From Psychromonas ingrahamii 37 (GTDB lineage: Bacteria > Pseudomonadota > Gammaproteobacteria > Enterobacterales > Psychromonadaceae): a stretch of DNA of 64,000 nucleotides. Positions within the stretch are counted from its first letter, which is position 1, and every line of letters starts with the position of its first letter. Where the stretch lies: positions 3,534,001 through 3,598,000 of the forward strand of contig NC_008709.1 in assembly GCF_000015285.1 (NCBI RefSeq). Direction: 5' to 3'. Below the pieces are notes generated by a model. The model did no database searches, had not been told where the DNA came from, and worked only from the letters and a program-made list of their open reading frames with translations. The translations under genes were made by a program, and so were the position numbers. Of this stretch, positions 3,783 to 40,915 are shown one piece after another.

Positions 3783-3945
3783 CAGACACAAAAAAAGGTG
3801 CCAGCAGCCACCTTCTTAATTTCATTTTAACAGGGAAAATAAACCGATAGGGTTTATTTTTTATCCAAAGCGCCAAAGCGATTTTTGCTTATCTTTGCTT
3901 CGATCTTCGATACGACCGCCAGTATCAACAAGCAGTGCTGTATAC
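3783..3945 (-). repeat. Degenerate tandem copy of the rpmE 3' end and terminator
   Basis: This segment repeats 3968 to about 4110 with a 185-base offset. It contains, on the minus strand, the last 20 or so codons of rpmE (ending NRFGALDKK and a stop, against NRFGALGKK in the real gene), the AATAAACC-type hairpin and a decayed version of the GGTGCC hairpin. A short insertion of TTCGATC-like sequence disrupts the frame upstream. It is a non-functional echo of the gene end, not a second L31 gene. Confidence 0.85.
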
Positions 3946-3971
3946 CGCAAGCTCTAACCCCGAATCACAGA

Positions 3972-4003
3972 CACAAAAAAAGGTGCCAAAAGGCACCTTC
4001 TTA
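3972..4003 (-). terminator. Rho-independent terminator of rpmE
   Basis: On the minus strand the sequence reads AAGGTGCC, a TTTT loop, GGCACCTT and a run of T. It lies about 40 bases after the rpmE stop. A second hairpin (AATAAACC/GGTTTATT, 4022-4045) overlaps the stop codon region. Confidence 0.8.
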
Positions 4004-4038
4004 ATTTCATTTTAACAGGGAAAATAAACCGATAGGGT

Positions 4039-4251
4039 TTATTTTTTACCCAGAGCGCCAAAACGATTTTTGAATTTTTCGATACGACCGCCAGTATCAA
4101 CAACACGCTGAGTACCAGTGTAGAACGGGTGACATTCGCCACAGATATCTAGTGTTAAATTTTTGCCAGCTGTTGAGCCAACAGTAACTATATTACCACA
4201 TGAACAAGTCGCTGTGATTTCTTTGTATTCTGGATGAATAGCATTTTTCAT
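4039..4251 (-). CDS. rpmE: 50S ribosomal protein L31, zinc-binding type
   Basis: L31 belongs to the large ribosomal subunit and contacts the 30S subunit across the intersubunit bridge. The 70-residue protein has the family length and the metal-binding cysteines CSC (16-18) and CGEC (37-40), so it is the C+ zinc-containing paralogue rather than YkgM-like L31B. The ending RFGALGKK is typical. It is monocistronic with its own terminator. The 3' end is echoed as a decayed tandem copy just downstream at 3783-3945. Confidence 0.95.
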
Positions 4252-4362
4252 TTGGAAAACCTCTATTGGGCCGTATCGCTGCTCTGCTTGAATGAATCAT
4301 TTCATTCAACAAAGTACCATACGTATTTATCATTAAATTTCAGGTTGCAAATTGTATAGCAA

Positions 4363-4880
4363 TGTTTAATAAAAATACAACTATAAAGTGTATTCTCAGC
4401 ACTATTTATTAATAACCGTTCATTATGGTTTTTAATGTAGCATCAAGCAAACTTTGCGGCGTATAAATTCTGTCTGTTACCTTTAATAATTTTGCTCTGC
4501 TGGTCTTATTTTTCAGTCCGCAGTAATTAAATATAATACGATGTATTTCAGATAGATTATCAATAACATTAATACTCATTATTTCTTTATTTAAATGGGT
4601 ATCCAGATAGGAATATTCATTTGTTTAATAAAAATACAACTATAAAGTGTATTCTCAGCACTATTTATTAATAACCGTTCATTATGGTTTTTAATGTAGC
4701 ATCAAGCAAACTTTGCGGCGTATAAATTCTGTCTGTTACCTTTAATAATTTTGCTCTGCTGGTCTTATTTTTCAGTTCGCAGTAATTAAATATAATACGA
4801 TGTATTTCAGATAGATTATCAATAACATTAATACTCATTATTTCTTTATTTAAATGGGTATCCAGATAGGAATATTCATT
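4363..4880 (-). repeat. Two extra tandem copies (259 bp each) of the 3' end of the zinc-ribbon gene
   Basis: Units at 4363-4621 and 4622-4880 are exactly 259 bases apart and differ at about one visible position. The third unit, 4881 to about 5131, is the authentic 3' end of the gene at 4927-6288 and differs from the other two at about ten positions. The two outer copies have therefore been duplicated recently or kept alike by conversion, while the genic copy has diverged. Each copy includes the stop codon and about 46 bases beyond it. Confidence 0.95.
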
Positions 4881-4926
4881 TGTTTAATAAAAATACAACT
4901 ATAAAGTGTATTCTCAGCACTATTTA

Positions 4927-6288
4927 TTAATAACCGTTCATTATGGTTTTTAATGCGGCATCAAGTAAACTTTGCGGCGTATAAATTCTGTCTGTGACCT
5001 TTAATAATTTTGCTCTGCTGGTCTTATTTTTCAGTTCGCAGTAATTAAATATAGTACGATGTATTTCAGATAGATTATCAATGACATTAATACTATTTAT
5101 CCCTTTATTCAAATGGCTATCCAGGTAGGCATAAAATAACCCATTGCTGCTCGTATCACTTAATTTTAAATCAGCATTCAATGTTGTGCTGGATGCGATT
5201 GGGCAATAAGCGCCAAAATCGTTACTGAACCATTTATCACCCCACCAGCCAATTTTTCTCCCTTGTAAATGCTCACCTGTTTTATAGGATGACAAATAGA
5301 AATAAATGTCTGCTTTAGCGGTTTTGATATCTGCGGCGGACGCCATTAAGGCGGCAGCTCTAAAACAACTTTCATGTTCAATATAATGGGTGTAAGAAGA
5401 TGCTTTTGCAGTAAAAACCGTTAATAGTTGGAAATGAGCATAAGCCAATTTATCGGGGTAGATTAAATAACACTTTGTGGTCGGTTTTAATTCTCCGACT
5501 AGTAGTTGTTCAAAATGTCTTCTTTTAAAGTGTTGTTCATATCTTTTTATCAGCGCCGTTTCTAAATTATCCTTATTATTAGCAGATATTATTGTATTTT
5601 CCTGCTCATCATAGAGCGCTTTCTTAACCAAAGACTCTCTGGTTAAGTTATTGTTTTGTAATAACAGATAACCACTATCAACCTCTGAAGTCAGTAAAGT
5701 ATAAAAACCTCTGTTATGAGCAAGATGAACTACTTTGCCCTGAGTGTAGAGTGACAGCTGTTTTTGTTGAATCACTTTTTCTTCATTTAAACGACTAAAG
5801 GTCACCAGAATCTGGGCTAATTTATTAAGGTAAAAATAATATAATCGAGCCGAGAGTCCAGTGGCTTTAATGGATTCCTTTATTTCCTGATTGGCCATAA
5901 TACTGTTGAGAATGAGTCTAAGCGCATTAATATTTTTAAAGTATGGCAGAGTGAAAACAGCATGACAATCAGAGCACTTTTTTCTTTGCGTGCCTGCCGA
6001 TGTATAACCATGTGATATTGATTTAGTGCTTTTTTCAAAGAAAAAATATTGCGCGCATTTGCGACAACCGGTTAATTTCCGGGCGAAGTTAAGCTCAAGT
6101 TTTTCATTTATAATTTTTTCAACCAGCTTATTATTCACCCAGGGCGGGTAGCTACCACATAATTTACAGCCAGTGGACAAATACCCTAACTGCCTACTTT
6201 TTTGAATGTAATCAGCACTATTTATAACGGCAAAATTCTCACAATGCACTGTTTTGCAGCAATTAAAATCTTTAGTGAAGGTAAACAT
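4927..6288 (-). CDS. Cysteine-rich protein with an InsA-like zinc ribbon, function unknown
   Basis: This 453-residue protein has CxxC pairs at residues 41-44, 75-78 and 105-108, plus C10, C11 and C16. The segment from residue 75, CRKC followed by SAGTQRKKCSDCHAVFTL, closely resembles the zinc finger of IS1 InsA (CxxC, aGxQRyxCxxC, f.L). The middle part (SLYTQGKVVHLAHNR, then SEVDSGYLLLQ near residues 178-215) recalls the start of a transposase RNase H-like core, but no clear DDE triad was identified. No terminal inverted repeats were found, so it may be a domesticated or orphan transposase relative. It stands alone, and its 3' end is triplicated downstream. Confidence 0.6.
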   Translation of the reverse strand: MFTFTKDFNCCKTVHCENFAVINSADYIQKSRQLGYLSTGCKLCGSYPPWVNNKLVEKIINEKLELNFARKLTGCRKCAQYFFFEKSTKSISHGYTSAGTQRKKCSDCHAVFTLPYFKNINALRLILNSIMANQEIKESIKATGLSARLYYFYLNKLAQILVTFSRLNEEKVIQQKQLSLYTQGKVVHLAHNRGFYTLLTSEVDSGYLLLQNNNLTRESLVKKALYDEQENTIISANNKDNLETALIKRYEQHFKRRHFEQLLVGELKPTTKCYLIYPDKLAYAHFQLLTVFTAKASSYTHYIEHESCFRAAALMASAADIKTAKADIYFYLSSYKTGEHLQGRKIGWWGDKWFSNDFGAYCPIASSTTLNADLKLSDTSSNGLFYAYLDSHLNKGINSINVIDNLSEIHRTIFNYCELKNKTSRAKLLKVTDRIYTPQSLLDAALKTIMNGY

Positions 6289-6753
6289 TTTATCCCCCGG
6301 ATCCCTAGACCCTTTAATGATTCACCAATAATCCAATTAAAATAACTTGGTTTTATATAAACAAAGTCAATTAATTAATCATTGCACTTTTTATGCATCA
6401 TATTCCACAAAATAACTATAAAATAGTAGCTTATATTAAAAACAACATATTATGTAAATAGATTTAATAAGATTGAAATATTCATTATTATCTCGGGCCA
6501 GATCACATTCCAGAGGGGGCTTAGCAAATAAACTGCGCTCAATAACTCGATTCCAGAGATTCTTTGTTACAAATAAAATGCGTAAAAAGACAATATTACG
6601 ACGCTTCATTTTGAACAAATACAAATTTAAAAGGGGTAATAATTGCAGATTTTGGGACTATTACCCCCTTACAGTATTAATTAAATAAAGCGCTTAGCAG
6701 ATAGCTTATTTAATTTTTTTAGTCAAATTTATAAAATAAAATGGAGAGACAAT
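6289..6753. other. Upstream region of nupC with an imperfect hairpin
   Basis: No gene is seen. An inverted repeat, AAGGGGTAATA at 6631-6641 and TATTACCCCCTT at 6659-6670, forms an 11-bp stem with one bulged base about 85 bases before nupC. No T-run follows, so it is more likely an operator or leader structure than a terminator. A GGAGAG ribosome binding site sits at 6742-6747. Confidence 0.5.
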
Positions 6754-8007
6754 ATGGAAATTGTAATGGGTTTAGTCGGAATATTATCGTTAATGTTAAT
6801 CGCGGTAATTTTTTCCAGTAATCGAAAAGCAATTAACTTTCGAACAATAGGCGGGGCATTTCTTCTTCAGGCGGCAATACCCGCTTTTGTAATATTCACA
6901 GATTCCGGCGCAAGCGTATTGGGCAGTATATCCAGCGGGGTACAAGCCGTTATCGACAGTGCCAATGCAGGTATCGGATTTCTTTTCGGTGGTCTTGTTT
7001 CCAATACAATGTTTGAAGTATTCGGCGGAGGTGGTTTTGTTTTTGCGTTTAGAGTACTGCCAATCATTATTTTCTTTGCTTCATTAATGGCCGTGCTTTA
7101 TTACATAGGTCTGATGCAGTTTATTATCAAAATATTTGGCGGTGGCTTGCAAAAAGCATTGGGCACCAGCAGAACCGAGTCCATGTCAGCGGCGGCCAAT
7201 GTTTTTGTTGGACAAACTGAAGCCCCTTTAGTCGTAAAACCCTACATAAAAACCATGACTCGCTCAGAGCTTTTTGCGGTGATGGCGGGTGGTTTAGCAT
7301 CGGTTGCCGGTGCAGTATTAGCAGGTTATGCATCATTAGGTGTTAGCCTTGATTACCTTATTGCCGCATCATTTATGGCCGCGCCCGGTGGTTTACTAAT
7401 GGCGAAAATATTGGAGCCTGAAACAGAAACCCCGATCGACACGTTATCGGAGTCAGATATTGATGCAGAAGAGCACAAACCGGTTAATGTTATCGATGCT
7501 GCAGCAGTCGGCGCTGGCGATGGTCTTAGTCTGGCAATGAATGTCGGTGGTATGCTGATCGCGTTCATCGCATTAATCGCATTAGTTAATACTATTTTAG
7601 GCTCTGTCGGTGGTTTATTTGGTCTCGAAGCCCTGACCCTGCAGCAAATCTTCGGTTATGTCTTTTCTCCTATTGCCTTTCTTCTTGGTATCCCATGGTC
7701 TGAAGCGATGCAGGCAGGCAGTTTATTAGGCCAAAAATTGGTGGTTAATGAATTTGTTGCTTATATTGACTTTGTTAGTATTAAAGACACCTTAAGCGAA
7801 CACACTCAGGTCATTATTACCGTGGCTCTATGCGGCTTTGCCAACTTATCTTCTATGGCTATTTTATTAGGTGGTCTGGGTGTATTGGCTCCTTCTCGCC
7901 GCCCTGATATCGCTCGAATGGGTTTAAAAGCCGTGCTCGCGGGCACTTTATCTAACTTTATGAGTGCAACTTTGGTTGGTATATTCTTTGCTTTAAGTGT
8001 TGCTTAA
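6754..8007 (+). CDS. nupC: NupC-type concentrative nucleoside transporter
   Basis: A 417-residue inner-membrane symporter of the CNT family that takes up nucleosides with protons or sodium. It has many hydrophobic segments and the family-typical stretches GQTEAPLVVKPYI (about residue 152) and NEFVAYIDF (near residue 330), which in CNT structures contribute to nucleoside and ion binding. It opens a cluster of nucleoside catabolic genes on the same strand, with deoC 104 bases downstream, so it probably feeds that pathway. Ion preference cannot be told from sequence by eye. Confidence 0.92.
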   Translation: MEIVMGLVGILSLMLIAVIFSSNRKAINFRTIGGAFLLQAAIPAFVIFTDSGASVLGSISSGVQAVIDSANAGIGFLFGGLVSNTMFEVFGGGGFVFAFRVLPIIIFFASLMAVLYYIGLMQFIIKIFGGGLQKALGTSRTESMSAAANVFVGQTEAPLVVKPYIKTMTRSELFAVMAGGLASVAGAVLAGYASLGVSLDYLIAASFMAAPGGLLMAKILEPETETPIDTLSESDIDAEEHKPVNVIDAAAVGAGDGLSLAMNVGGMLIAFIALIALVNTILGSVGGLFGLEALTLQQIFGYVFSPIAFLLGIPWSEAMQAGSLLGQKLVVNEFVAYIDFVSIKDTLSEHTQVIITVALCGFANLSSMAILLGGLGVLAPSRRPDIARMGLKAVLAGTLSNFMSATLVGIFFALSVA

Positions 8008-8111
8008 ATACCACCATCAATAAACAAGTCCTTAGGGATGTCAATGCGCATCACTAGGGCCGGCTTAATAATAATATAGGCTGTCATCACCCGAATTAAA
8101 GGAAGAAAATT

Positions 8112-8885
8112 ATGCGCGACTTACAACAAGCATCCCGTTTAGCCATCCAATTAATGGATCTCACCACGCTAAATGACGATGATAACGATCAAAAAGTGAT
8201 ACAACTCTGTAAAGCGGCACACACCATAGCAGGTGATACGGCCGCAGTTTGTATTTACCCGCGTTTTATTCCTATTGCACGTAAAACACTTACATTGCAA
8301 AATACACCACAAATTAAAATTGCGACAGTCACTAATTTCCCACACGGTAATGATGATTTGAATATCGCTTTGGCAGAAACGCGGGCGGCGGTGGCCTATG
8401 GTGCCGATGAGGTTGACCTTGTCTTTCCTTACCGCGCACTGATCGAAGGCAATGCTGAAATCGGGACGACTATGGTTAAAGCCTGCAAAGATATTTGTGG
8501 TGATAACGTTACCCTGAAAGTGATTATTGAGTCAGGAGAATTAAAAACCCCTGAATTAATAAAAGCAGCCAGTGAAATTTGTATTAATGCCGGCGCTGAT
8601 TTTATTAAAACATCAACAGGTAAAGTGCCTGTTAATGCAACGTTAGAAGCGACTAAGATAATGCTTGAAGCGATCAAAGAGTCTGGCCTTAATGTTGGTT
8701 TTAAAGCTGCCGGTGGTGTTAAGGATGCGCAGACGGCCGATGATTATATGCAATTGGCAAGCAGTATTATGGGCGATAACTGGGTCGATAGAACACATTT
8801 CCGATTTGGCGCATCGAGCTTACTCGGCGCTTTATTATCGGCACTTAATTTGGCTGATAAAGCCACTGAAACAGGAGGTTACTAA
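8112..8885 (+). CDS. deoC: Deoxyribose-phosphate aldolase
   Basis: Cleaves 2-deoxyribose-5-phosphate to glyceraldehyde-3-phosphate and acetaldehyde, the last step of deoxyribonucleoside breakdown. The 257-residue TIM barrel carries the Schiff-base lysine in [14 protein letters not shown], the second lysine in [10 protein letters not shown], and the aspartate of [11 protein letters not shown], all as in E. coli DeoC. AAGGAAG precedes the ATG. Its stop overlaps the deoB start by one base (TAATG), and the deoB Shine-Dalgarno AGGAGG lies inside its last codons, so translation of the two is probably coupled. Confidence 0.96.
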
Positions 8886-10132: not shown

Positions 10133-10171
10133 ATAAAGTTAAATATTATATAAAAACACAACTAATATGGA

Positions 10172-14497: not shown

Positions 14498-14760
14498 TAC
14501 CAAAAAAATTAATGAAGTGATCAATTATTGCGAAGGAAAAATTAACACGAACAAGGCGTGAGTTGCATTCGATCGTTGTTCTCCTTCACAAAATTGTTCC
14601 ATACAATTTTGTGAAGCTTTAGCTGTTCACGAAGTGGTGAAGAACAAGACGTTCTGAATAAAACTCACAACGCAGTTAGGGATAATTTTAACCAGCAAGA
14701 ACGATCATCTTGTTAGTTCTTGCTGGTTAAAATACTCACCCTAAAGTTTTCTGATCTTAA
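14498..14760. repeat. MITE-like element E1a with a 17-bp hairpin
   Basis: It starts with TACCAAAAAAATTAATGAAGTGATCA, related to the ends of the elements at 14821 and 26484. It shares with the 26484 element the core TTCACGAAGTGGTGAA and the following AACAAGACGTTCTGAATAA-type sequence. Near its right end TTTTAACCAGCAAGAAC (14686-14702) and its exact complement (14716-14732) form a 17-bp hairpin. The right boundary is uncertain. Confidence 0.6.
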
Positions 14761-14820
14761 AGAGCACCTTTTTTGAGTAAACTGCTCGAAATGCCGGGAA
14801 ATCTATATTAAGAGTACTTA

Positions 14821-15003
14821 TACCAAATCCATTAATTTTCTGTTCATTTATGCTGGTTAAAATACATGCTAGCTAGACATAAAACTACGTTTTAGTCTTT
14901 GTTATTGATTTTATAATTAGAACAACTAGTTACTGCAATCAATGCCTTGCTTTCATGCATTTTTCCAGCGCCTAAACAAATCATTTAATTAGTCGAATTG
15001 ATA
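14821..15003 (-). repeat. MITE-like element E1b, internally shortened, opposite orientation
   Basis: Read on the minus strand it matches the element at 26484-26751 over both ends, including the ACTAGTTGTTCTAATTAT and AAGCAAGGCATTGATTGCAG segments. It lacks about 80 central bases containing the CACGAAGTGGTG core. The terminal sequence TACCAAATCCATTAATTTTC begins at 14821; the other end is AATTGATA at 15003. Confidence 0.75.
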
Positions 15004-15130
15004 TTAGAAGCGTACTCTCCCGGCACTTCCTGTTGCTGTTTATAAACAGGTTACATTTCCATGGGCGTTTTTTTACCCGCTTTATGTGAAACAGGTTACA
15101 ATGAGTTTTTATCTTCATTACATTGAGTGT

Positions 15131-17362
15131 ATGACCCAACCTATCATTTGCCGCATCGCATTAGCGATTCCTCTGCATAAACAATTTGATTATCTGCTGC
15201 CTGATTATCTGTTAAAAACAGAGCCCAACAACCTGGTAGGCTGCCGAGTACGTGTGCCCTTTGGTGGCAAACGACAACTTATTGGGGTGATCTGCGAAGT
15301 GAATCCAAAATGTGATTACGCCATCGATAAACTAAAAAAAATCACCCAATTGATTGATCAGACCCCTTTATTGGATAAAAACATCTGGTCACTGCTGCGT
15401 TGGGCGGCTTTTTATTACCAGTATGCTTTTGGTGATGTCTTTCAGCAGGCATTACCGTCTTCACTACGCCAGGGTAAAGAAGCCATTTTTAAGGGTTATG
15501 AACATTGGCAATTAACCGCCAATCCTTTTAATTTGAATGATTTTAAACGTGCCCAAAAGCAGCAGTCTGCCTTACAAATTTTAAGCGAATCAAGTTTATC
15601 CAATCAGCAGTTAAGCGCACAGGGGATAAGTCGCCCAACGCTCAAAGCATTACAGGAAAAAGGGGTTATTGAGTCCGTTGATAAACAACCGGTCAGCAAT
15701 CTCAATTGGTTAGCTCAATTTGAAGAATCGGCACAAAAACCGGCTTTAACCGTCGAACAAGCTATTGCTATAAGCTGCGTTAATCAGCAGTTAGAGGCTT
15801 TTAACTGCTTTTTATTAGAGGGCATAACAGGCAGTGGAAAAACCGAAGTTTACCTTAATATTATTAAACCAGTCTTACTCGCGGGTAAACAGGCATTGGT
15901 AATAGTACCTGAAATCGGTTTAACGCCGCAAACCATTAAACGTTTTCAGGCACGTTTTAATGTCCCTGTTTATCTTAAACATTCAGGATTAAACCCAAGA
16001 GAGCAACTCGATACCTGGCTGCATGCAAAACAAGGCAGCGGCGCCATTATTATCGGTACACGCAGCAGCATATTTTGCGATTTTAAAAATTTAGGCTTAA
16101 TCATTTTAGATGAAGAGCATGATGCCTCTTTTAAACAACAGGATGGTTTTCGTTATCATGCGCGTGATTTTGCAATCAAACGTGCCGCCTTGCAGAAAAT
16201 CCCCATTATTTTAGGCTCTGCCACGCCGTCCTTAGAAACATTAAACAATGCCCTGCAGGGAAAATATCAGCACTTGCATCTGACCGAGCGCCCGGGTAAT
16301 GCTAAACCACCCACCAACAGCCTGATTAATTTAGCCGGTTTACCGCTAAAATCAGGACTATCTCCGCAGTTAATTGAATTAATGAAAAAACACCTGGATA
16401 AAAATAATCAGGTTATTCTTTTTTTAAACCGCCGTGGTTATGCCCCTGTCTTAATGTGCCATGAATGCGGGTGGTTAGTTAAATGTGGCCGTTGTGATGC
16501 CTTTTACACTTACCATAAATCAGCTAATTACCTGCACTGCCACCACTGCGCTTCCACTCTGCCCGTTCCTCATCAGTGTGATGATTGTGGCTCGACACAA
16601 TTAAACTCAACAGGAGTGGGTACAGAGCAGTTAGAGGAGACCTTAAACGACCTTTTCCCGGATCATCCGACGGTCCGTATTGACCGTGATAATACCCGCA
16701 AAAAAGAGAGCTTTAATCAATATTTAACCGATATCAACAGCGGTAAATATAAAATTTTACTCGGCACCCAGATGCTGGCAAAGGGCCATCACTTCCCCGA
16801 TGTCACGCTGGTCGCATTAATAGATGTTGATGGCGCACTGTTTTGTAATGACTATCGTGCCAGCGAAAGATTAGCACAGCTGTTTACGCAAGTATCAGGT
16901 CGCGCAGGACGAGCAGAAAAAAAGGGTCAAGTGGTACTGCAAACACATCACCCTGAGCACAGTTTACTTCAGGATCTTATCAATAACGGTTATTTTGAAT
17001 TTTCCCGTAATGCGCTGCAGGAGCGAAAGCTTGCGCAGTTACCGCCAAGTACATTTCAAGCTTTATTAAGAGCGGAGTCCGATAATGCAACGCTGGCTGA
17101 AAACTTCCTGTCTTTATGTCAGCAAATCTTGCAACAAATCTGCATTAACAATAACAGCCTTGATAAGTTATTAATTTTAGGACCGATTCCTGCATCAATG
17201 GAAAGACGCGCAGGAAAGTATCGTTTTCAACTCTTATTACAAAGTGAACAACGCGCCGTGATCACGCAGATACTACATCGGGCATTACACGCTTTTGATA
17301 ACCTGCCGGAAGGGCGAAAAGTAAGATGGTCTATTGATGTTGATCCGATTGATTTTGTTTAA
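15131..17362 (+). CDS. priA: Primosomal replication restart helicase PriA
   Basis: A 3'-5' DExH helicase that recognises stalled or repaired forks and reloads the replicative helicase through PriB/DnaT. The 743-residue protein has an N-terminal fork-binding domain, Walker A in GITGSGKTEVYL (about residue 235), the LDEEHDASFKQ box, eight cysteines in the CHECG/CGRC/CHHC/CDDCG zinc segment, and the helicase C motif GTQMLAKGHHF. The ATG at 15131 (MTQPIICRIALAIPL) is chosen by similarity to PriA starts such as MPVAHVALPVPL; the frame opens at 15086 but those residues are not conserved. It appears monocistronic, with a terminator at 17428. Confidence 0.95.
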   Translation: MTQPIICRIALAIPLHKQFDYLLPDYLLKTEPNNLVGCRVRVPFGGKRQLIGVICEVNPKCDYAIDKLKKITQLIDQTPLLDKNIWSLLRWAAFYYQYAFGDVFQQALPSSLRQGKEAIFKGYEHWQLTANPFNLNDFKRAQKQQSALQILSESSLSNQQLSAQGISRPTLKALQEKGVIESVDKQPVSNLNWLAQFEESAQKPALTVEQAIAISCVNQQLEAFNCFLLEGITGSGKTEVYLNIIKPVLLAGKQALVIVPEIGLTPQTIKRFQARFNVPVYLKHSGLNPREQLDTWLHAKQGSGAIIIGTRSSIFCDFKNLGLIILDEEHDASFKQQDGFRYHARDFAIKRAALQKIPIILGSATPSLETLNNALQGKYQHLHLTERPGNAKPPTNSLINLAGLPLKSGLSPQLIELMKKHLDKNNQVILFLNRRGYAPVLMCHECGWLVKCGRCDAFYTYHKSANYLHCHHCASTLPVPHQCDDCGSTQLNSTGVGTEQLEETLNDLFPDHPTVRIDRDNTRKKESFNQYLTDINSGKYKILLGTQMLAKGHHFPDVTLVALIDVDGALFCNDYRASERLAQLFTQVSGRAGRAEKKGQVVLQTHHPEHSLLQDLINNGYFEFSRNALQERKLAQLPPSTFQALLRAESDNATLAENFLSLCQQILQQICINNNSLDKLLILGPIPASMERRAGKYRFQLLLQSEQRAVITQILHRALHAFDNLPEGRKVRWSIDVDPIDFV

Positions 17363-17427
17363 GTTGAGAACGAGTTGAGGGCTGCGAGCTGATATCTTAA
17401 AGCTTAAAGCCGAAAGCTACAGGCAAT

Positions 17428-17456
17428 AAAAAACCGAGATAATTCTCGGTTTTTTA
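17428..17456. terminator. Bidirectional terminator between priA and sspB
   Basis: AAAAAACCGAGA, a short loop and TCTCGGTTTTTT form a symmetric hairpin with A-run and T-run. It serves the convergent priA and sspAB transcripts. Confidence 0.85.
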
Positions 17457-17473
17457 AATCAGATAAAATAAGA

Positions 17474-17887
17474 TTATTTTACAATAGTCAGTGTGGGTTG
17501 CTTACTTGGCTTAGTATCCGTTTTTTCTGTTTTAACAGTTTCTACTGACCCGTCCAAAGCCTGGTAGGCCGGCTCTTCAGGAAAGATAGTTCCGCTGCCG
17601 TTCTCACGGGCGTAAATACCTTCTATCGCATATAAAGGCACATAAACCTGCATTGGCTGCCCTGAAAAACGGGCATTAAATGCCACTGCATCATCATCCA
17701 TTGAAAACTGCATAACTGATTGAGGTGCAATATTAAGGACAATTTTGCCATCTTCAACAAATTTCTGAGGCACTTCAACACCAGTTTGTGTTGCGTCAAC
17801 AATAATATGCGGTGTACATTCACTATCAACGATCCAATTGTAAAAGGCACGAAGAAGATACGGCCTTTGCACTAACATAGTTGTCAT
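17474..17887 (-). CDS. sspB: ClpXP protease specificity-enhancing factor SspB
   Basis: An adaptor that tethers ssrA-tagged proteins to ClpX for degradation after ribosome rescue. The 137-residue protein begins with the conserved dimeric domain (RPYLLRAFYNWIVDSECTPH, then IVLNIAPQSVMQF and FNARFSGQPMQVYVPL). It ends with a flexible linker and a basic peptide (PTLTIVK) resembling the ClpX-binding tail LRVVK of E. coli SspB. The start codon abuts the end of sspA (one-base overlap), the usual sspAB operon. Confidence 0.95.
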   Translation of the reverse strand: MTTMLVQRPYLLRAFYNWIVDSECTPHIIVDATQTGVEVPQKFVEDGKIVLNIAPQSVMQFSMDDDAVAFNARFSGQPMQVYVPLYAIEGIYARENGSGTIFPEEPAYQALDGSVETVKTEKTDTKPSKQPTLTIVK

Positions 17888-18522
17888 TATGCTCCCACTC
17901 TAATTTCACGTTCAGTTTCAGTCATTGACGCTTGAAATGACTCGCGTTCAAAAACTTTTACCATGTAACTTTTTATGCCCGCGACATTATCAAAACCTAA
18001 GTCGATATTTAATTCAGGTAAACGCCATAATAAGGGTGCCATGTAACAATCAATAAGGGTAAAATCTTCCGACATAAAGTAGGCAAAGTGATCAAATACT
18101 GGCGCCACTAATAAAATGGCATCACGGAGTTTTTTACGTGCAGCATCTGCCGCTTCTGTATTACCATTCATAATAGTATCAACTAATGGATACCAATCAC
18201 TTTCGAGACGCTGCATCATTAAACGCCCTTTACCACGCTCAACGGGATAAACAGGCATTAATGGCGGGTGCGGAAAACGCTCGTCCAAGTATTCCATAAT
18301 AATGCGTGAATTGTATAAAACCAATTCACGGTCAACTAACGTTGGCACTGTGTTATAAGGATTTAACTCTACTAATTCTTCAGGCCAATTGTCTTCATCA
18401 GCAAAAGTAATTTCAACTGTGACGCCTTTTTCTGCCAGTACAATACGTGTTTGATGACTATATAAATCTGAAGCACCTGAAAACAGTGTCATTACAGAAC
18501 GTTTATTCGCAGCTACGGCCAT
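17887..18522 (-). CDS. sspA: Stringent starvation protein A
   Basis: An RNA polymerase-associated protein with a glutathione S-transferase fold that modulates transcription in starvation and acid stress. The 211-residue protein has the thioredoxin-like N-terminal half (MTLFSGASDLYSHQTRIVLA, residues 11-30) and the conserved surface motif PPLMPVYP near residue 85, as in E. coli SspA. It forms an operon with sspB. It lies 108 bases after petC, separated by a terminator-like hairpin. Confidence 0.95.
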   Translation of the reverse strand: MAVAANKRSVMTLFSGASDLYSHQTRIVLAEKGVTVEITFADEDNWPEELVELNPYNTVPTLVDRELVLYNSRIIMEYLDERFPHPPLMPVYPVERGKGRLMMQRLESDWYPLVDTIMNGNTEAADAARKKLRDAILLVAPVFDHFAYFMSEDFTLIDCYMAPLLWRLPELNIDLGFDNVAGIKSYMVKVFERESFQASMTETEREIRVGA

Positions 18523-18560
18523 GAAAATCCCCTAATATATGGATAAAATGTTGAATGTTT

Positions 18561-18600
18561 AAAAACTAAAAAGGCAATAGTGATAAATATCACTGCTGCC
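18561..18600 (-). terminator. Probable terminator of petABC
   Basis: On the minus strand a long hairpin, GGCAGCAGTGAT and ATCACTATTGCC with one mismatch and one wobble, is followed by TTTTTAGTTTTT. It lies 31 bases after petC and before sspA, separating the two transcripts. Confidence 0.7.
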
Positions 18601-18630
18601 GATTAAATTAGGTGAGATAAAAGTTCACGA

Positions 18631-19362
18631 TTAATGAATGTCGCGCCAATACTCCTTCTTCAGTAAATAACTAAGAATGAATAAGATAACTAAAAAGCCT
18701 ATCACCCAAAAACCTAGGGCTTGACGCTCTAATTTATTTGGTTCACCTGCATAGACTAAGAAGTTTACCAGATTTAGGACCGCTTTGTCATACTCATCGG
18801 AGCTCATTTCACCCTGTCCGTTACTTTCAAAACCGACGATTGCTTTATGCTCAACACCATTATGCTCTGTTGTTTCATAAATAGCCGTAGGAACACCCTG
18901 TAACTCTTCCAATACATGGGGCATACCCACGAGAGGAAAGACCTGATTGTTAACTCCAAATGGACGCGTTGGATCGGCATAAAAAGTGCGTAAGTAAGTA
19001 TAGATCCAATCCGGACCTCGAAGACGTGCTACTAAGGTTAAATCAGGAGGAACCACTCCAAACCATTTCCCGCCATCGGCTGGATCCATGTTATTTTTCA
19101 TCAAGTCACCAATTTTACTGTCAGTGAACATCAGATTATTAACCATTAAATCCTCAGGGATATCCAAATCGTTTGCTACCCGCTGATAACGTTGGTGTGC
19201 CGTAGAATGACATGCCATGCAATAATTCATAAACAGTTTAGCACCACTTTGCAGTGACGCTTTATCCGTTAAATCATAATTAGCTTTATCCAGTTGAACA
19301 TTACCTGCTGCAAAAACCAGTGTCGGTAATAATGCCAATAAGGCAATCATTAATTTTTTCAT
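18631..19362 (-). CDS. petC: Ubiquinol-cytochrome c reductase, cytochrome c1 subunit
   Basis: The haem c subunit of the bc1 complex, passing electrons from the Rieske protein to soluble cytochrome c. The 243-residue protein has a cleavable signal peptide (MKKLMIALLALLPTLVFA), the haem-binding motif CMACH at about residues 48-52, and a C-terminal membrane anchor (about 217-236) ending KKEYWRDIH. It overlaps petB by four bases and is the last gene of the petABC operon. Confidence 0.95.
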   Translation of the reverse strand: MKKLMIALLALLPTLVFAAGNVQLDKANYDLTDKASLQSGAKLFMNYCMACHSTAHQRYQRVANDLDIPEDLMVNNLMFTDSKIGDLMKNNMDPADGGKWFGVVPPDLTLVARLRGPDWIYTYLRTFYADPTRPFGVNNQVFPLVGMPHVLEELQGVPTAIYETTEHNGVEHKAIVGFESNGQGEMSSDEYDKAVLNLVNFLVYAGEPNKLERQALGFWVIGFLVILFILSYLLKKEYWRDIH

Positions 19363-26483: not shown

Positions 26484-26751
26484 ACCTTATACCAATTCCA
26501 CTAATTAAATGATCTATTTAGGCACCGGAAAAACGCATAAAAGCAAGGCATTGATTGCAGTAACTAGTTGTTCTAATTATACAAAATAGTAGGGAACTAT
26601 TTTGAACAGCTTCAGCTGGCCACGAAGTGGTGAATAACAGGATGTTATGAATCAAATCAATAGCACAGACTAAAACAGGGTTTTATGTCTAGCTAGCATG
26701 TGTTTTAACACGCATAAATGAGCAGAAAATTAATGGATTTGGTATTAGGTG
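26484..26751. mobile_element. MITE-like element E2, best-preserved copy
   Basis: This noncoding element of about 268 bp has imperfect terminal inverted repeats: CACCTTATACCAATTCCACT on the left, and CACCTAATACCAAATCCATT as the complement of the right end. The interior contains GGCCACGAAGTGGTGAAT and CTAGCTAGCATG. Related copies lie at 14498, 14821, 41293 and a short one at 3727. It carries no transposase, so mobilisation would need a partner in trans. Target-site duplication was not resolved. Confidence 0.75.
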
Positions 26752-30947: not shown

Positions 30948-30963
30948 ATTTATTTCCATTTTT

Positions 30964-31139
30964 TATATGACGGATTACGCTCCGAACATAAATACCGTTA
31001 ATATAAAATCCATTGCTAACATTTAATAATGGTGATGAAACAACCACTTGTTATATGACGGATTACGCTCCGAACATAAACACCGTTAATATAAAGTCCA
31101 TTGCTAACATTTAATAATGGTGATGAAACAACCACTTGT
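30964..31139 (-). repeat. Two extra tandem copies (88 bp each) of the mlaE 3' end
   Basis: Units at 30964-31051 and 31052-31139 repeat the sequence at 31140 to about 31225, where mlaE ends. On the minus strand each copy keeps the last 14 codons in frame (LAMDFILTVFMFGA and stop), but small insertions break the frame further upstream. The copies sit inside the operon between mlaE and mlaD. Confidence 0.95.
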
Positions 31140-31150
31140 TATATGACGGA

Positions 31151-31927
31151 TTACGCTCCGAACATAAACACCGTTAATATAAAATCCATTGCTAACACTA
31201 ATAATGATGAAACGACTACTGTCTGTGTTGTTGAGCGACTAATACCGATAGCGTTTGGCATCACATAATAACCATTATAAAGTGCTACCCAGGTAATCAT
31301 TACACCAAAGACAATACTCTTAATCACGCCATTCATAACATCCGGCAGATAATCAACACTGCCCTGCATCACAGACCAATACGCTCCGCCATCAACCCCC
31401 ATCCAAGAGACACCGATTAAATATCCTCCCCAAATAGCCACCACATTAAACATCAATGTTAGCAACGGCAGCGTCACGATGCCGGCAAGAAAACGCGGTG
31501 CTATCACACGTTTAAGAGGGGAAACTGCCATCATTTCCATACTGGCAATTTGCTCGGTGCTTTGCATTAAACCAATTTCAGCGGTCAGCGCAGAGCCTGC
31601 TCGCCCGGCAAAAAGTAAGGCCGTTACAACGGGCCCTAACTCTCTTAATAACGATAAAGCCACCATGCTGCCTAAACTTTCCTCGGCAGCATAATCAACC
31701 AGCACATTATAACCCTGTAAGCTTAATACCATGCCGATAAACAAACCAGCGGTTAATATAATCGGTAAAGATAAAATACCAAGTTGAAATATCTGTCCGA
31801 TAAATAAAGGAAACAATTTAGGGTGCGGCATGCCGAACATTGTATGGAACAACATTACGCAGGACTTTCCCGTCGTTTTTATAAAATATAAAGATAAACG
31901 CCCGACGGCGCCAGCAAAATCTAACAT
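31151..31927 (-). CDS. mlaE: MlaE, permease subunit of the Mla transporter
   Basis: The integral membrane subunit, dimeric in MlaFEDB, forming the lipid path. The 258-residue protein has about five to six membrane segments and the permease signatures GMVLSLQGYNVLVDY and LRELGPVVTALLFAGRAGSALTAEIGLM (about 90-117). It overlaps mlaF by one base. Its 3' end is triplicated in tandem downstream. Confidence 0.94.
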   Translation of the reverse strand: MLDFAGAVGRLSLYFIKTTGKSCVMLFHTMFGMPHPKLFPLFIGQIFQLGILSLPIILTAGLFIGMVLSLQGYNVLVDYAAEESLGSMVALSLLRELGPVVTALLFAGRAGSALTAEIGLMQSTEQIASMEMMAVSPLKRVIAPRFLAGIVTLPLLTLMFNVVAIWGGYLIGVSWMGVDGGAYWSVMQGSVDYLPDVMNGVIKSIVFGVMITWVALYNGYYVMPNAIGISRSTTQTVVVSSLLVLAMDFILTVFMFGA

Positions 31928-34947: not shown

Positions 34948-34949
34948 AA

Positions 34950-35675: not shown

Positions 35676-35776
35676 AAGACTTATACAGGGTATATAAAAA
35701 GCTATTTTTTAAACCAAATTCCGCATTAATAATAACTCAATAACTTATATAATCAGCCAGATTCAGGGGGAATGTT

Positions 35777-37231
35777 TTGATAAAACAAGGTTTGCATTTA
35801 AAGATGGGGCAGCAACTTGCAATGACCCCACAATTGCAGCAAGCAATCAAATTGCTACAACTCTCTACACTGGATTTACAGCAGGAAATTCAGAATATTC
35901 TCGACTCAAACCCGCTATTAGAACAAGAAGATAACAACGGTACGCAGGAAGTCATCGCAAAGCAGGATAGCAGTCAGATTGATACTTCTGAAGCAATAAC
36001 CCAGCAAGAGTTCTCTAATGATTTACCCGCTGAAAATAACTGGGAAGAATCTTATTCTGAATATTCAAGCAGCTCCACAACTTCTCCCTCATCCTCTTCA
36101 AGTTATGAAGGCGAGGACAGTATTTACCAGGGAGAATCTTCAACCTCTTTACAAGATCATTTAATTTGGCAAATGCAACTGACCCCATTTTCCGATACGG
36201 ATCTTGTCATAGCCGCTGCCCTCATTGACTCGATAGATGAGTCTGGCTATTTAACCGCGAGTTGTGAATCAATTTTGGAAAGCTTAATCACTGAAGCTGA
36301 TGATATTGAATTAGATGAAGTACTGGTTGTCCTAAAACGCATTCAACATTTTGATCCAATCGGTGTTGCTGCTCGTTCAACTCAGGAGTGTTTACAAATC
36401 CAACTGCGACATCTACCGGAACAAACACCATGGCGCAGTGAAGCGTTAACAATACTTGCTCATCACATGGATTTACTGGGTAACCGGGATTACCGTACTC
36501 TGGCAAGAAAAAGTAAATTAAAAGAGTTTGAATTAGCAGAGGTATTGCATTTAATTCAAACGCTTGAACCCAGACCTGGAAACCAAATCGAAAATAGCCA
36601 ACCCCAATATATTGTGCCCGATGTTTATGTCAAAAAAATTGCAGGTCAATGGCGTGTATCGCTCCACCCAGATTCAGATGCTAAGCTTTCCATAAATCAA
36701 ACATATGCAAATTTATGTAAAGGTAATATTAGTAAAGCTGATTCTCAGTTTATTAAAGGTCATTTACAAGAAGCAAGATGGTTTATTAAAAGCCTGGAAA
36801 GCCGTAACGAAACCTTATTAAAAGTCTCTCATTGTATTGTGCGCCAACAACAAGCATTCTTCGAATATGGGGAAGAATCAATGAAACCCATGGTGCTTAA
36901 TGATGTTGCGTTAGAGGTAGATATGCATGAATCGACCATTTCCCGGGTCACGACACAAAAATTCATGCATACCTCAAGAGGTATTTTTGAATTGAAGTTT
37001 TTCTTTTCCAGCCATGTTGCGACAGAAAGTGGAGGAGAATGCTCCTCAACGGCAATTAAGGCATTAATCAAAAAATTAATCTCTGCAGAGGTCAGCAGCA
37101 AACCTTTAAGTGATAATAAAATAGCACTGTTACTTGAACACCAGGGTATTAAAGTGGCGCGCCGTACTATCACAAAATATCGGGAATTATTGGGGATTTC
37201 ATCATCAAGCCAACGAAAAATGCTGCTCTGA
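35777..37231 (+). CDS. rpoN: RNA polymerase sigma-54 factor
   Basis: The alternative sigma factor that recognises -24/-12 promoters and needs enhancer-binding activators. The 484-residue protein has the glutamine-rich region I (LKMGQQLAMTPQLQQAIKLL), an acidic serine-rich linker (about residues 48-120), the core-binding domain, and the RpoN box ARRTITKYRELLGI near the C-terminus. Unlike most gammaproteobacteria, no hpf gene follows; ptsN comes next. Confidence 0.96.
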   Translation: MIKQGLHLKMGQQLAMTPQLQQAIKLLQLSTLDLQQEIQNILDSNPLLEQEDNNGTQEVIAKQDSSQIDTSEAITQQEFSNDLPAENNWEESYSEYSSSSTTSPSSSSSYEGEDSIYQGESSTSLQDHLIWQMQLTPFSDTDLVIAAALIDSIDESGYLTASCESILESLITEADDIELDEVLVVLKRIQHFDPIGVAARSTQECLQIQLRHLPEQTPWRSEALTILAHHMDLLGNRDYRTLARKSKLKEFELAEVLHLIQTLEPRPGNQIENSQPQYIVPDVYVKKIAGQWRVSLHPDSDAKLSINQTYANLCKGNISKADSQFIKGHLQEARWFIKSLESRNETLLKVSHCIVRQQQAFFEYGEESMKPMVLNDVALEVDMHESTISRVTTQKFMHTSRGIFELKFFFSSHVATESGGECSSTAIKALIKKLISAEVSSKPLSDNKIALLLEHQGIKVARRTITKYRELLGISSSSQRKMLL

Positions 37232-37323
37232 TTTTATAAAGATCAAGAAAACCATATTTGTTGATGATCATTCATAGCGCAAGTGCTAACATCGCGCAAA
37301 TTTTTGTAATAGCTAAATCAAAT

Positions 37324-37770
37324 ATGAATATTTCAAGCTTATTAAATAAAGAATCTGTTTTTGCCAAAACTGCTTGTACAAGCAAAAAATGCGCATTAGA
37401 AAAAATTAGCCATATTGCGGGTGAAAAATTAAATATAGATCCGCAAATATTATTTAATCGTTTAATTGCGCGTGAAAAAATCGGCTCTACGGGTGTTGGA
37501 ACGGGTATTGCGATTCCACACGTAAAAATAGATAGCGCTTTACCCGCTACAGCTGTTTTTATACAATGTGAATCAGCAATAGATTACGATGCATACGATG
37601 GTAATAAAGTTGACATACTCTTTGCCATTTTTGTACCGGAAGATCGTTGTAAACAGTATTTGTCTGCTCTTTCTGAAATCAGTCAAAAACTATTGGATAA
37701 ACAATTTTTACGTCGACTAAGAAATGCGAAAAATAACGAAATGTTATGTCTGTTGCTAGAAATTAAATAA
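37324..37770 (+). CDS. ptsN: Nitrogen-PTS EIIA protein PtsN
   Basis: Terminal phospho-acceptor of the PTS-Ntr regulatory chain (PtsP-PtsO-PtsN), affecting potassium and nitrogen balance. From the ATG at 37324 it has 148 residues, starting MNISSLLNKESVF; the conserved EIIA segment REKIGSTGVGTGIAIPHVKI contains the phosphorylated histidine. The open frame extends to 37258 but those residues are unconserved. Its C-terminal codons are repeated three times downstream. Confidence 0.92.
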   Translation: MNISSLLNKESVFAKTACTSKKCALEKISHIAGEKLNIDPQILFNRLIAREKIGSTGVGTGIAIPHVKIDSALPATAVFIQCESAIDYDAYDGNKVDILFAIFVPEDRCKQYLSALSEISQKLLDKQFLRRLRNAKNNEMLCLLLEIK

Positions 37771-38090
37771 TGGCAGTATTTGTCTGCGCTGTCTGAAATA
37801 CGTCAACTAAGAAATGCGCAAAGCAACAAAATATTATCTCTATTGCTAGCAGTTAAATAATTGCGGTAATGGCAGTATTTGTCTGCGCTGTCTGAAATCA
37901 GTCATAAACTTTTACGTCAACTAAGAAATGCGCAAAGCAACAAAATATTATGTCTGTTGCTAGCAGTTAAATAATTGCAATAATGGCAGTATTTGTCTGC
38001 GCTATCTGAAATCAGTCATAAACTTTTACGTCAACTAAGAAATGCGCAAAGCAACAAAATATTATGTCTGTTGCTAGCAGTTAAGTAATA
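37771..38090 (+). repeat. Three degenerate tandem copies of the ptsN 3' end
   Basis: Units begin at about 37771, 37870 and 37984 (spacings 99 and 114 bases), each repeating the last 110 or so bases of ptsN. The second and third still read in the ptsN frame as QYLSALSEISHKLLRQLRNA and then QSNKILCLLLAVK plus stop, against the genic QYLSALSEISQKLL. The copies resemble each other more than the gene: all three share CGCAAAGC and CTAGCAGTTAA. Confidence 0.93.
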
Positions 38091-38103
38091 ACAAGGGGGT
38101 ACA

Positions 38104-38952
38104 ATGAAATTAATCGTTATCAGCGGGCGCTCCGGTTCAGGAAAAACCATTGCACTTCATGTGTTGGAAGATTTAGGCTATAACTGTATCGATGGTGTGC
38201 CATTCCAGTTACTTGCGCAATTAATCGATACTGTAGACCCTAAAAATAATAAAGTTGCGATTAGTTTAGATATTCGTAATTTACCCACCGATGCCAGCCA
38301 AATCCAGACGCTGCTGTCGTCATTACAACAAAAAGTTGAGGTAGAGATTATCTACCTTGATGCCATTAGCGCTGAATTAATTCGCCGCTACAGTGAAACA
38401 AGGCGTTTACACCCTTTATCTAAAAACAAACTGTCTCTCTCTCAAGCTCTCGAATTAGAAAATGAATTGCTGGAGCCGATCCACAAAAGGGCTGCACTGT
38501 CGATCGACACAACTACCCTTTCTATCCATAATTTAAATGAACGTCTTAAAATTCATTTACAGGGGTCGACTAAAAGTAACTTATTGATCATCTTCCAATC
38601 TTTTGGTTTTAAAAATATCCACCCTGATGATGCCGATTATATTTTTGATGTGCGTTTTTTACCCAACCCGCATTGGGAGCCCACTTTACAAAAATACACG
38701 GGTAAAGATCAACCTGTAAAAGCATTTCTTAATGGTCATCTTGTGGTAAAACAAACGATTAACCAAATTGAAAACCTTTTCCATTCATGGTTGCCGTACC
38801 TTGAAGAAAATAATCGTAATTATGTGACCATAGCCATTGGCTGTACGGGCGGAAAACACCGCTCTGTCTATGTAGCAGAACAGCTTGCTGCTCAGTTTAA
38901 ACAAAAATATCAGGTTCAAATTGAGCATAAAGGATTAAAGGATCAGCTGTAA
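38104..38952 (+). CDS. rapZ: RapZ, RNase adaptor / nucleotide-binding protein
   Basis: In E. coli, RapZ binds the sRNAs GlmY/GlmZ and guides RNase E, controlling glucosamine-6-phosphate synthase. The 282-residue protein has Walker A in ISGRSGSGKTIALHVLEDLG (residues 5-24) and the C-terminal RNA-binding domain with AIGCTGGKHRSVYVAEQL. GGGGG precedes the start by 5 bases. The stop codon lies in the first of two tandem copies of the rapZ/ptsO junction. Confidence 0.95.
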   Translation: MKLIVISGRSGSGKTIALHVLEDLGYNCIDGVPFQLLAQLIDTVDPKNNKVAISLDIRNLPTDASQIQTLLSSLQQKVEVEIIYLDAISAELIRRYSETRRLHPLSKNKLSLSQALELENELLEPIHKRAALSIDTTTLSIHNLNERLKIHLQGSTKSNLLIIFQSFGFKNIHPDDADYIFDVRFLPNPHWEPTLQKYTGKDQPVKAFLNGHLVVKQTINQIENLFHSWLPYLEENNRNYVTIAIGCTGGKHRSVYVAEQLAAQFKQKYQVQIEHKGLKDQL

Positions 38953-39125
38953 TCACACAAACTATTACTATCCCAAATAAATTAGGCTTGCATACACGCG
39001 CTACAATCAAGAATATCAGGTTCAAATTGAGCATAAGGGGCTAAAGGAGCACCTGTAATGAGCACCATCACACAAACTATTACCATCCAAAATAAATTAG
39101 GCTTGCATACACGCGCTACAATCAA
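38906..39125 (+). repeat. Tandem duplication of the rapZ/ptsO junction
   Basis: Copy one (38906-39011) and copy two (39012-39125) both carry the rapZ tail (TATCAGGTTCAAATTGAGCA...) followed by the first codons of ptsO (...TTAGGCTTGCATACACGCGC). Copy one lacks nine bases covering the ptsO start codon, and its AAGGAT lacks the Shine-Dalgarno AAGGAG present in copy two. Hence rapZ uses copy one and ptsO uses copy two. Confidence 0.95.
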
Positions 39126-39336
39126 ACTTGTTGAGTTAGTTGCGTCTTTTGATGCTACTATCATAATCAAACATCAAGGCAAACAAGCCGATGCCAGTAG
39201 TGTCCTTGGGTTGTTAGTATTAGAGACTTGTTATGGTCAAGAAATTGAAATACTAGCAGAAGGAAGTGAAGCGGAGCGGGCCATGCTTGCTGTTACCAGA
39301 CTGATAGAAAATAAGTTTTTAGAAGAAAATGAATAA
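39058..39336 (+). CDS. ptsO: Nitrogen-PTS phosphocarrier NPr
   Basis: An HPr-like protein that passes phosphate from PtsP to PtsN. The 92-residue protein has the active-site histidine in NKLGLHTRATIKLVEL; the usual second residues are ARPA, here TRAT, a mild variation. QGKQADASSVLGLLVLETCYG matches the regulatory-site region. AAGGAG lies 9 bases before the ATG, within rapZ-derived duplicated sequence. mgtE follows after 14 bases. Confidence 0.92.
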   Translation: MSTITQTITIQNKLGLHTRATIKLVELVASFDATIIIKHQGKQADASSVLGLLVLETCYGQEIEILAEGSEAERAMLAVTRLIENKFLEENE

Positions 39337-39350
39337 TATAAGGTCATGTC

Positions 39351-40712
39351 ATGCTGGAAAATAGCGATGCTCAAAATACCCAAGAAAGATTCAATGAAAT
39401 AGATAAAGCCCTCGAAAGTGGTATGTTCGTATTAGCTCGTAGTATTCTTGACAAAATGCACGCCTGTGATGTGGCTTTACTGCTTGAATCATCCCCCCCT
39501 ACCAAGCGTAAAATATTATGGAGTTTGACAGATCATGATGAACAGGGGGAAATACTCGACGAATTAAATGAAGATGCACAGGACAGCATCATCGCATTAA
39601 TGGATGCAACCAATATAGTATCCGCCACAGAAGGTATGGATATCGATGATCTCGCGTCTATTTTGCGGGGTATTCCAGATAGCCTATACCAAGAGGTATT
39701 GGATACTATGGATGCGCAGGATAGACACCGTGTAGAGCAGGCGCTTTCCTATCCAGAAGAGACCGCAGGTTCTATGATGAATACCGATACTATTACACTG
39801 CGCGCAGATGTATCGGTTGATGTCGTATTACGCTATTTACGCCTGAAAGGTGAATTGCCGGACGCAACAGACACGCTGTATGTGGTTAATAAAGAAGACC
39901 AATTGATTGGCGATGTTCCCCTATCCACCTTATTAACCGTTGATCCTTCTCTTTCTATAGAGCAGGTCATGAATAGCAAAACAGAAATGCTCGAAGTCGG
40001 AATGGATGACGGTGAAATTGCCAAGTTATTTGAACGGTATGATTTGATTTCCGCTCCTGTTGTGGATGAAAATAAACACCTTTTAGGCCGTATTACCATT
40101 GATGATGTAGTTGATATTATCCGCGAAGAGGCTGAGCACACAATGATGGGTATGGCCGGTATGGACGATGATGAAGATACCTATGCGCCCGTTCTCTCAA
40201 GCGCTAAACGACGCACTGTTTGGCTGGCTCTAAATCTTGTTGCCGCCTTTATTGCTGCCTCAGTATCAAATATGTTTGAAGCCACCTTAGAGCAGATGGC
40301 AACCCTTGCTGTATTAATGACAATAGTCCCTAGTATGGGTGGGATTGCAGGGAATCAAACACTTGCATTGGTTATTCGCGGACTGGCGGTTGGTCATATA
40401 GGCAAAACAAATGCCCGTTGGTTAATTGGCAAAGAAGCCGCAATCGGCTTAATTAATGGTATGATTTGGGCGACCTTAGTCGCGACTGCGGTAACCCTGT
40501 GGAAGGGCGATATCACTGTTGGTTACATTATTGCCGGGGCGATGTTTATCAATTTATCTGTGGCTGGCATTGCAGGTGTCACTATACCGCTGATTATGCA
40601 TAAATATAAAATTGATCCCGCTCTCGCTGGTGGAATGGCCCTCACCACCCTGACCGATGTGATTGGCCTGTTTTCGTTCTTGGGTATGGCAACCTTAGTC
40701 TTAAAAGTATAA
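39351..40712 (+). CDS. mgtE: Magnesium transporter MgtE
   Basis: A dimeric magnesium channel gated by cytosolic magnesium. The 453-residue protein has the N-terminal superhelical domain (about 10-125), two CBS domains (about 130-250, ending ITIDDVVDIIREEAEHTMM), a plug helix and five membrane helices (about 285-453) with the selectivity-associated region MTIVPSMGGIAGNQTLALV. It closely follows ptsO, as in many marine gammaproteobacteria. Its last codons are repeated downstream together with the yacL end. Confidence 0.95.
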   Translation: MLENSDAQNTQERFNEIDKALESGMFVLARSILDKMHACDVALLLESSPPTKRKILWSLTDHDEQGEILDELNEDAQDSIIALMDATNIVSATEGMDIDDLASILRGIPDSLYQEVLDTMDAQDRHRVEQALSYPEETAGSMMNTDTITLRADVSVDVVLRYLRLKGELPDATDTLYVVNKEDQLIGDVPLSTLLTVDPSLSIEQVMNSKTEMLEVGMDDGEIAKLFERYDLISAPVVDENKHLLGRITIDDVVDIIREEAEHTMMGMAGMDDDEDTYAPVLSSAKRRTVWLALNLVAAFIAASVSNMFEATLEQMATLAVLMTIVPSMGGIAGNQTLALVIRGLAVGHIGKTNARWLIGKEAAIGLINGMIWATLVATAVTLWKGDITVGYIIAGAMFINLSVAGIAGVTIPLIMHKYKIDPALAGGMALTTLTDVIGLFSFLGMATLVLKV

Positions 40713-40915
40713 TTTTATTGGCTGTGTAAAAATGCTGACCATGATTTGCTTTAATGACTTCATACAATCATCTAGTCTTAAAAGTATCATTTTATTGGCT
40801 GTGTAAAAATGATAACCATAATTTGCTTTAATGAATTCATAAAATCATCTAAATCATCTAAATCATCTAAATCATAATAGTATTAAAAGTATAATTTTAT
40901 TGGCTGTGTAAAAAT
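40701..40915. repeat. Tandem copies of the joined mgtE/yacL 3' ends
   Basis: TTAAAAGTATAATTTTATTG, the mgtE end running into the yacL end (TTATTGGCTGTGTAAAAA), occurs at 40701, 40778 and 40883. The first copy serves mgtE and the last serves convergent yacL, so the middle material has expanded the space between two gene ends. A 9-base minisatellite (ATCATCTAA, about four units) lies at about 40847-40875. Confidence 0.92.

Follow-up and report, generated by a model that had tools for sequence, protein, structure and literature searches.

In a 64,000-nucleotide stretch of the chromosome of Psychromonas ingrahamii 37 (NC_008709.1, positions 3,534,001 to 3,598,000; hereafter the window), the ends of several genes are repeated in the adjacent spacer, which raises the question of whether these arrays form a purpose-built system or are what selection has left of frequent duplication. 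The chromosome is a single contig of 4,559,598 bp with a G+C content of 40%, and the genome paper gives the size as 4.56 Mb (PMC2405808). The original prediction placed tandem copies at six gene ends, and all six loci indeed hold tandem or near-tandem direct repeats, beyond what chance would produce. Five of them were called by Tandem Repeats Finder, and the sixth, at rpmE, was detected by a direct-repeat search with 85% identity over 154 nt. We consider it likely that the arrays reflect frequent small tandem duplication in this Psychromonas lineage, filtered by selection, rather than a purpose-built system. The six arrays, with a purely intergenic one for comparison, are as follows.

3778..4103, minus strand: rpmE gene end; two copies at a spacing of 185 nt, with the 65-nt rpmE tail, the stop codon, the 3' untranslated region (UTR) and a terminator-like hairpin; gene end at 4039, extra copy at about 3778-3931.
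4363..5139, minus strand: end of an unnamed open reading frame (ORF) at 4927-6288, labelled 'zinc-ribbon' in the original prediction; three 259-nt copies, two of them extra (4363-4880), the third holding the 207-nt gene tail.
30956..31220, minus strand: mlaE/mlaD spacer; three 88-nt copies; mlaE end at 31151, with 70 nt of the mlaE tail.
37654..38089, plus strand: ptsN tail (117 nt); four copies at 90/114-nt spacing; ptsN end at 37770; the array stops 14 nt before rapZ.
38899..39125, plus strand: rapZ tail and ptsO head; two copies with 54 nt of the rapZ tail (gene end at 38952) and 68 nt of the ptsO head.
40696..40928, no strand assigned: mgtE tail and UPF0231 (yacL) tail; two 77-nt copies followed, after a run of 9 nt, by a third; mgtE tail 17 nt (end at 40712), yacL tail 32 nt.
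51389..51897, no strand assigned: purely intergenic array of six 81-nt copies, not at a gene end.

The calls of Tandem Repeats Finder were 259 nt in 3.0 copies at 4363-5133, 88 nt in 2.9 copies at 30956-31210, periods of 90 and 114 nt at 37709-38089, 115 nt in 2.0 copies at 38902-39126, and 77 nt in 2.0 copies at 40696-40851. The terminal 77-260 bases of a gene had been described as copied. These figures are the lengths of the repeat units; every one of the six arrays extends into a gene 3' end, and the tails inside the arrays measure 17 to 207 nt. The extra copies had also been said to lie always on the 3' side. This is true of the gene whose stop codon is covered, but when a head-to-tail duplication spans a stop codon, the intact gene necessarily runs into the first copy, and the placement is therefore forced by geometry and uninformative. 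It does not hold for all genes touched, since the rapZ/ptsO unit contains both the rapZ tail and the ptsO head, so that its extra copy also sits 5' of ptsO, and the mgtE/yacL unit spans the tails of two convergent genes. The first ptsO head in the rapZ/ptsO array has no start codon. The view that a repeated process, and no single repeat family, produced the arrays was supported: no direct-repeat family links two of the six, as a repetitive extragenic palindromic (REP) or miniature inverted-repeat transposable element (MITE) family would, and the dispersed families of the window lie elsewhere.

The survey outside the window covered 60 stretches of 20 kb distributed over the same genome (1.2 Mb, 26% of it), 20 stretches taken from five of the larger contigs of Psychromonas sp. 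MB-3u-54, the nearest relative compared (RapZ 98%), and 20 stretches from every control genome, of which there were three (G034 and G010 from the same genus, G017 from the same order). Repeats were found by self-BLAST, and genes were predicted with a script-made, uncurated caller trained per genome, an order-4 model (76% coding) that replaced a codon-only caller, which was too weak (68% coding). The strict counts passed a tandem filter that drops spaced repeats, the mgtE/yacL array among them.

The own-genome sample gave 32 strict arrays, of which seven covered a gene 3' end, one a gene end together with a start and one a start only, while 11 were intergenic and 12 lay in genes. MB-3u-54 gave 15 (three at 3' ends, one at both ends, none at a 5' end only, seven intergenic and four in genes). 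The controls gave five in G034 (three intergenic, two in genes), seven in G010 (four intergenic, three in genes) and five in G017 (one at a 5' end, two intergenic, two in genes). Non-coding arrays amounted to 16.7 per Mb in the own sample and 27.5 in MB-3u-54, against 7.5, 10 and 7.5 in the controls. Every in-gene period was divisible by three (12/12 in the own sample, 4/4 in MB-3u-54, 2/2 in G034, 3/3 in G010 and 2/2 in G017), while among the remaining arrays this was the case for 4 of 20 in the own sample and 3 of 11 in MB-3u-54.

Arrays covering only a 3' end outnumbered those covering only a 5' end by 7:1 in the own sample (p=0.035) and 3:0 in MB-3u-54, or 10:1 when pooled (p=0.006), where geometry predicts equality. 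Under the 12 settings tried, the ratio stayed within 5-8 : 0-2 and 1-3 : 0, respectively, and no setting produced a gene-end array in the controls. Gene starts are thus avoided by arrays. On the other hand, gene ends did not exceed intergenic space when compared with random placement, with 8:11 seen and 3.1:5.8 expected in the own sample (p=0.63) and 4:7 seen in MB-3u-54 (p=0.75). The predicted enrichment at gene ends therefore stands relative to gene starts but not relative to intergenic space, and the counts do not bear out gene ends as hot spots. A loose count including spaced repeats gave 52 arrays in 61 stretches, the window included (14 at 3' ends, three at both kinds of end, one at a start, 14 in genes and 20 intergenic); the same count gave nine arrays in G010 and seven in G017, none at a 3' end.

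Of 17 array edges within 70 nt of a gene start, 10 lay no more than 15 nt before the start or 5 nt inside it, by a post hoc hand count in which starts came from our own caller and four of the ten edges belong to one orthologous spacer in both species (arrays at stretch edges were excluded from the spacer-type count). This clustering, together with the missing start codon of the first ptsO copy, fits avoidance of a second start signal. A divergent spacer outside the window, whose flanking genes we take to be trxA and rhlB from their protein starts, is 233 nt long in P. ingrahamii and 338 nt long in MB-3u-54 and is repeated in both. A divergent spacer consisting of repeats nearly throughout, with 121- and 113-nt units, was observed in both species (L049, 13935-14162; L194, 17720-18051). 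Separately, stretch L064 contains at 15900-18655 a 249-nt in-frame unit in eleven copies within one very long reading frame.

A comparison of copy number, proposed with the original prediction, was made with probe words against MB-3u-54, which is another species. The window and MB-3u-54 carry three and six copies of the mlaE tail, two and eight of the rapZ tail, four and one of the ptsN tail, three and two at mgtE/yacL (with a loose probe of 25 nt) and two each at rpmE. Copy number thus differs at four of the five countable loci, and the flanks of the mlaE, rapZ, ptsN and rpmE arrays are 90-99% identical between the two. The array at 4363-5139 could not be counted in MB-3u-54, whose assembly breaks within the unit at the ends of two contigs; in GLG-1 the unit occurs once. 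Among 16 Psychromonas loci around rapZ, arrays were present in MB-3u-54 (L010) and GLG-1 (L011), and none was found at the threshold used in the other 14 (L012-L025), of which L023 spans only ptsN to yacL and L022 yielded no mlaB-mlaE. GLG-1 has arrays of its own at 3334-3511 and 4200-4415 of its locus, at the mlaE end and between mlaF and mlaE. The proposal of slippage or unequal exchange, with the open frame kept by selection, is supported by these copy-number differences and by the in-gene periods, all of them multiples of three.

Adjacent downstream copies differ from each other at 16, 12 and 20 sites of codon positions 1, 2 and 3 (p=0.37; a single array, L088, contributes 25 of the 48), and orthologous gene ends at 17, 9 and 80. 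The copies show no visible coding constraint.

The rpmE probe occurs twice in the window and in MB-3u-54, three times in GLG-1 and P. ossibalaenae, and once in P. antarctica. In the first four of these, every extra copy contains an insertion with a net aligned length of 13-16 nt, which is missing from all gene copies and from the single copy of P. antarctica. Past this insertion, the gene and the extra copy within a species are 0.94 identical in the window, 0.89 in MB-3u-54, 0.88-0.89 in GLG-1, and 0.92 and 0.57 in P. ossibalaenae, the last copy of which is decayed, while the window and GLG-1 share only 0.58-0.64. Between the window and MB-3u-54 the identity there is 0.87-0.95, which matches the values within species; between GLG-1 and P. 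ossibalaenae it is nearly as high (0.81-0.87, the decayed copy aside). Because the members of each pair are alike, this pattern of concerted evolution rests on two groups and not on four independent cases. The simplest account appears to be a single ancient duplication, after which the copies would have exchanged sequence as far as the last codons. Since the extra copies have a common insert absent from the genes, and the part that follows, with the last codons and the 3' UTR, nevertheless resembles the gene of its own species group, a feedback loop can be imagined, in which persisting duplications keep exchanging with the parent gene and spacer copies form a store of altered ends able to rewrite the last codons in a cold-adapted lineage. 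We offer this only tentatively and regard it as unlikely. A dispersed repeat adjoins rpmE at 3500-3780 of the window; a query of 3500-6400 gave 58 matches in MB-3u-54, nearly all to the first 290 bases of the query.

From these observations, we infer the following course. Small tandem duplications, with units of roughly 60-300 nt, would arise often and anywhere in the chromosome, probably by replication slippage, with later changes in copy number through slippage or unequal exchange. A unit inside a gene would remain only if it kept the frame. Nearly every unit that covers a stop codon or lies in a spacer could remain, since each flanking gene retains one whole copy. A unit across a start codon would rarely be kept, since an additional upstream start with its ribosome-binding site would upset expression. 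The extra copies would drift, gain or lose copies, and at times exchange with the end of the parent gene.

Several results weigh against this course. Array numbers are small in both the own sample and MB-3u-54, and the rpmE number is equal in the window and MB-3u-54. Searches of 24 Psychromonas genomes for the ExoI, MutS and SbcC families revealed no cause for a raised rate. The loss of a function that limits repeats was rejected as a candidate, since P. ingrahamii and MB-3u-54 each match all three families, the SbcC matches falling below the family cut-off in 24 of the 24 genomes. Differences between gene tails and copies number 54, 40 and 100 at codon positions 1, 2 and 3, a skew to third positions; their third-position share is 52%, where arithmetic from the orthologue rates predicts about 46% for a constrained gene and a free copy, and this is compatible with a weak constraint on the copies. 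The window itself, which was chosen for repeat density, has six strict arrays in its 64 kb, compared with 32 in the 1.2 Mb sampled elsewhere; four of the six lie at a 3' end, one at both ends and one in intergenic space, which puts five at gene ends (p=0.09 against intergenic space). Finally, gene ends account for 12 of the 31 non-coding arrays of the clade outside the window and for none of ten in the three controls (Fisher p=0.02), which pure tolerance would not predict. This last result would be expected if gene 3' ends were a true mutational hotspot in the lineage, for example because transcription ends there and meets replication or because terminator hairpins provoke slippage, and the rpmE units, found in arrays in four species, do hold a terminator-like hairpin. 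However, the ratio of gene-end to intergenic arrays equals that of random placement, as described above, and the mlaE, ptsN and rapZ arrays sit between close same-strand genes and have units without unusual fold. We therefore judge a hotspot to be an unlikely explanation.

A regulatory role had also been raised. The arrays might be functional in 3' UTRs or operon spacers, as repeated rpmE terminators or by tuning the distance between translated genes, and be kept by selection. The rpmE extras persist in four species, several retaining a hairpin, terminator-like as judged by eye, with a T run, and many array edges lie close to the next start in the post hoc count. In one MB-3u-54 rpmE copy, however, the hairpin is interrupted. 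The adjacent copies are free of codon bias, the folding of seven array units gave nothing notable (z -1.54 to +0.48), and copy number ranges from 1 to 8 between near relatives, with no array in 14 of the 16 loci around rapZ. At the gathering threshold, the only Rfam match in the whole window was the L31 ribosomal protein leader (RF03157, 4259-4323, 35.9 bits), on the 5' side of rpmE. Taken together, these results argue against the proposed role, and we consider function improbable. Known integrating elements duplicate gene ends, and a mobile element could leave copies behind by inserting at the ends of genes and rebuilding them. The units differ at each locus, however, and three to eight copies with mixed variants fit amplification; no element was found between the gene-end copies, which are adjacent or nearly so, and this origin is very improbable. 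Tandem repeats are also difficult to finish, and the arrays might be an assembly artefact of the finished genome. Independent assemblies share some of the gene-end arrays (mlaE, rapZ and rpmE in MB-3u-54; mlaE and rpmE in GLG-1) with different and diverged copies, so that an artefact is hardly credible. Frequent duplication filtered by selection is the explanation that we favour.

Several other features of the window were observed. The protein of ORF 4927-6288 had no Pfam match at E<=0.001, and a TnsD-like label for it was rejected as an unsupported guess. A second dispersed family occurs in spacers at 14588-15007, 26486-26748 and 41290-41397, in direct and inverted copies that are 76-90% alike. 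A 54-nt motif at 51358-51411, 54106-54159 and 54986-55039 is 78-89% alike and is possibly a shared regulatory site.

Close direct repeats have been attributed to tandem duplication, and mitochondrial genomes contain duplicated gene junctions in which the surplus copies decay. The mitochondrial process reorders whole genes, whereas the Psychromonas arrays copy just gene ends and spacers. The original prediction knew of no described system with this pattern; comparable cases have, however, been published. Among 88 variable-number tandem repeat (VNTR) loci of Yersinia pestis, 48 are intergenic, 24 lie in ORFs (24/24 divisible by three) and 16 lie over ORF ends, namely ten stop codons and six start codons, one of the six being a CRISPR (clustered regularly interspaced short palindromic repeats) locus, and the authors argue that variation on the stop side has less effect (PMC3689786). 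Those units measure 1-60 bp, 84% of them 7-21, whereas the Psychromonas units are about 60-300 nt long, with up to 207 nt of gene tail and diverged copies. The tandem repeats of Borgs, which are archaeal elements, resemble the Psychromonas arrays in that in-gene units are divisible by three and some repeat regions begin in ORF ends (PMC9879509). They are perfect and A-enriched, with example units of 18-21 nt, whereas the Psychromonas repeats are longer and imperfect and belong to a bacterial chromosome. A survey of close direct repeats in prokaryotes, which counted 4-10 nt words and does not name Psychromonas in its main text, reports that pairs are often over-represented in intergenic DNA and that close repeats are fewer at higher growth temperature (PMC4060949). 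For the pattern quoted, psychrophiles equal mesophiles in that survey, and therefore a link of the arrays to cold is not established. A term search of the main text of the P. ingrahamii genome paper found neither 'tandem' nor 'intergenic' (PMC2405808).

The arrays have head-to-tail units, a copy number that varies between relatives and in-gene units that keep the frame, as bacterial VNTRs and minisatellites do. They belong with the described VNTR-like tandem repeats, and their longer units set them apart. Within one lineage, they make up a natural collection of small tandem duplications, and the sites where these survive show how selection acts: always in-frame in genes, tolerated at ends and rare at starts. 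Markers for strain typing and for measuring the duplication rate in the cold could come from the mlaE, rapZ and ptsN arrays, and rpmE suggests that the end of a gene and its copies in the spacer can evolve jointly.

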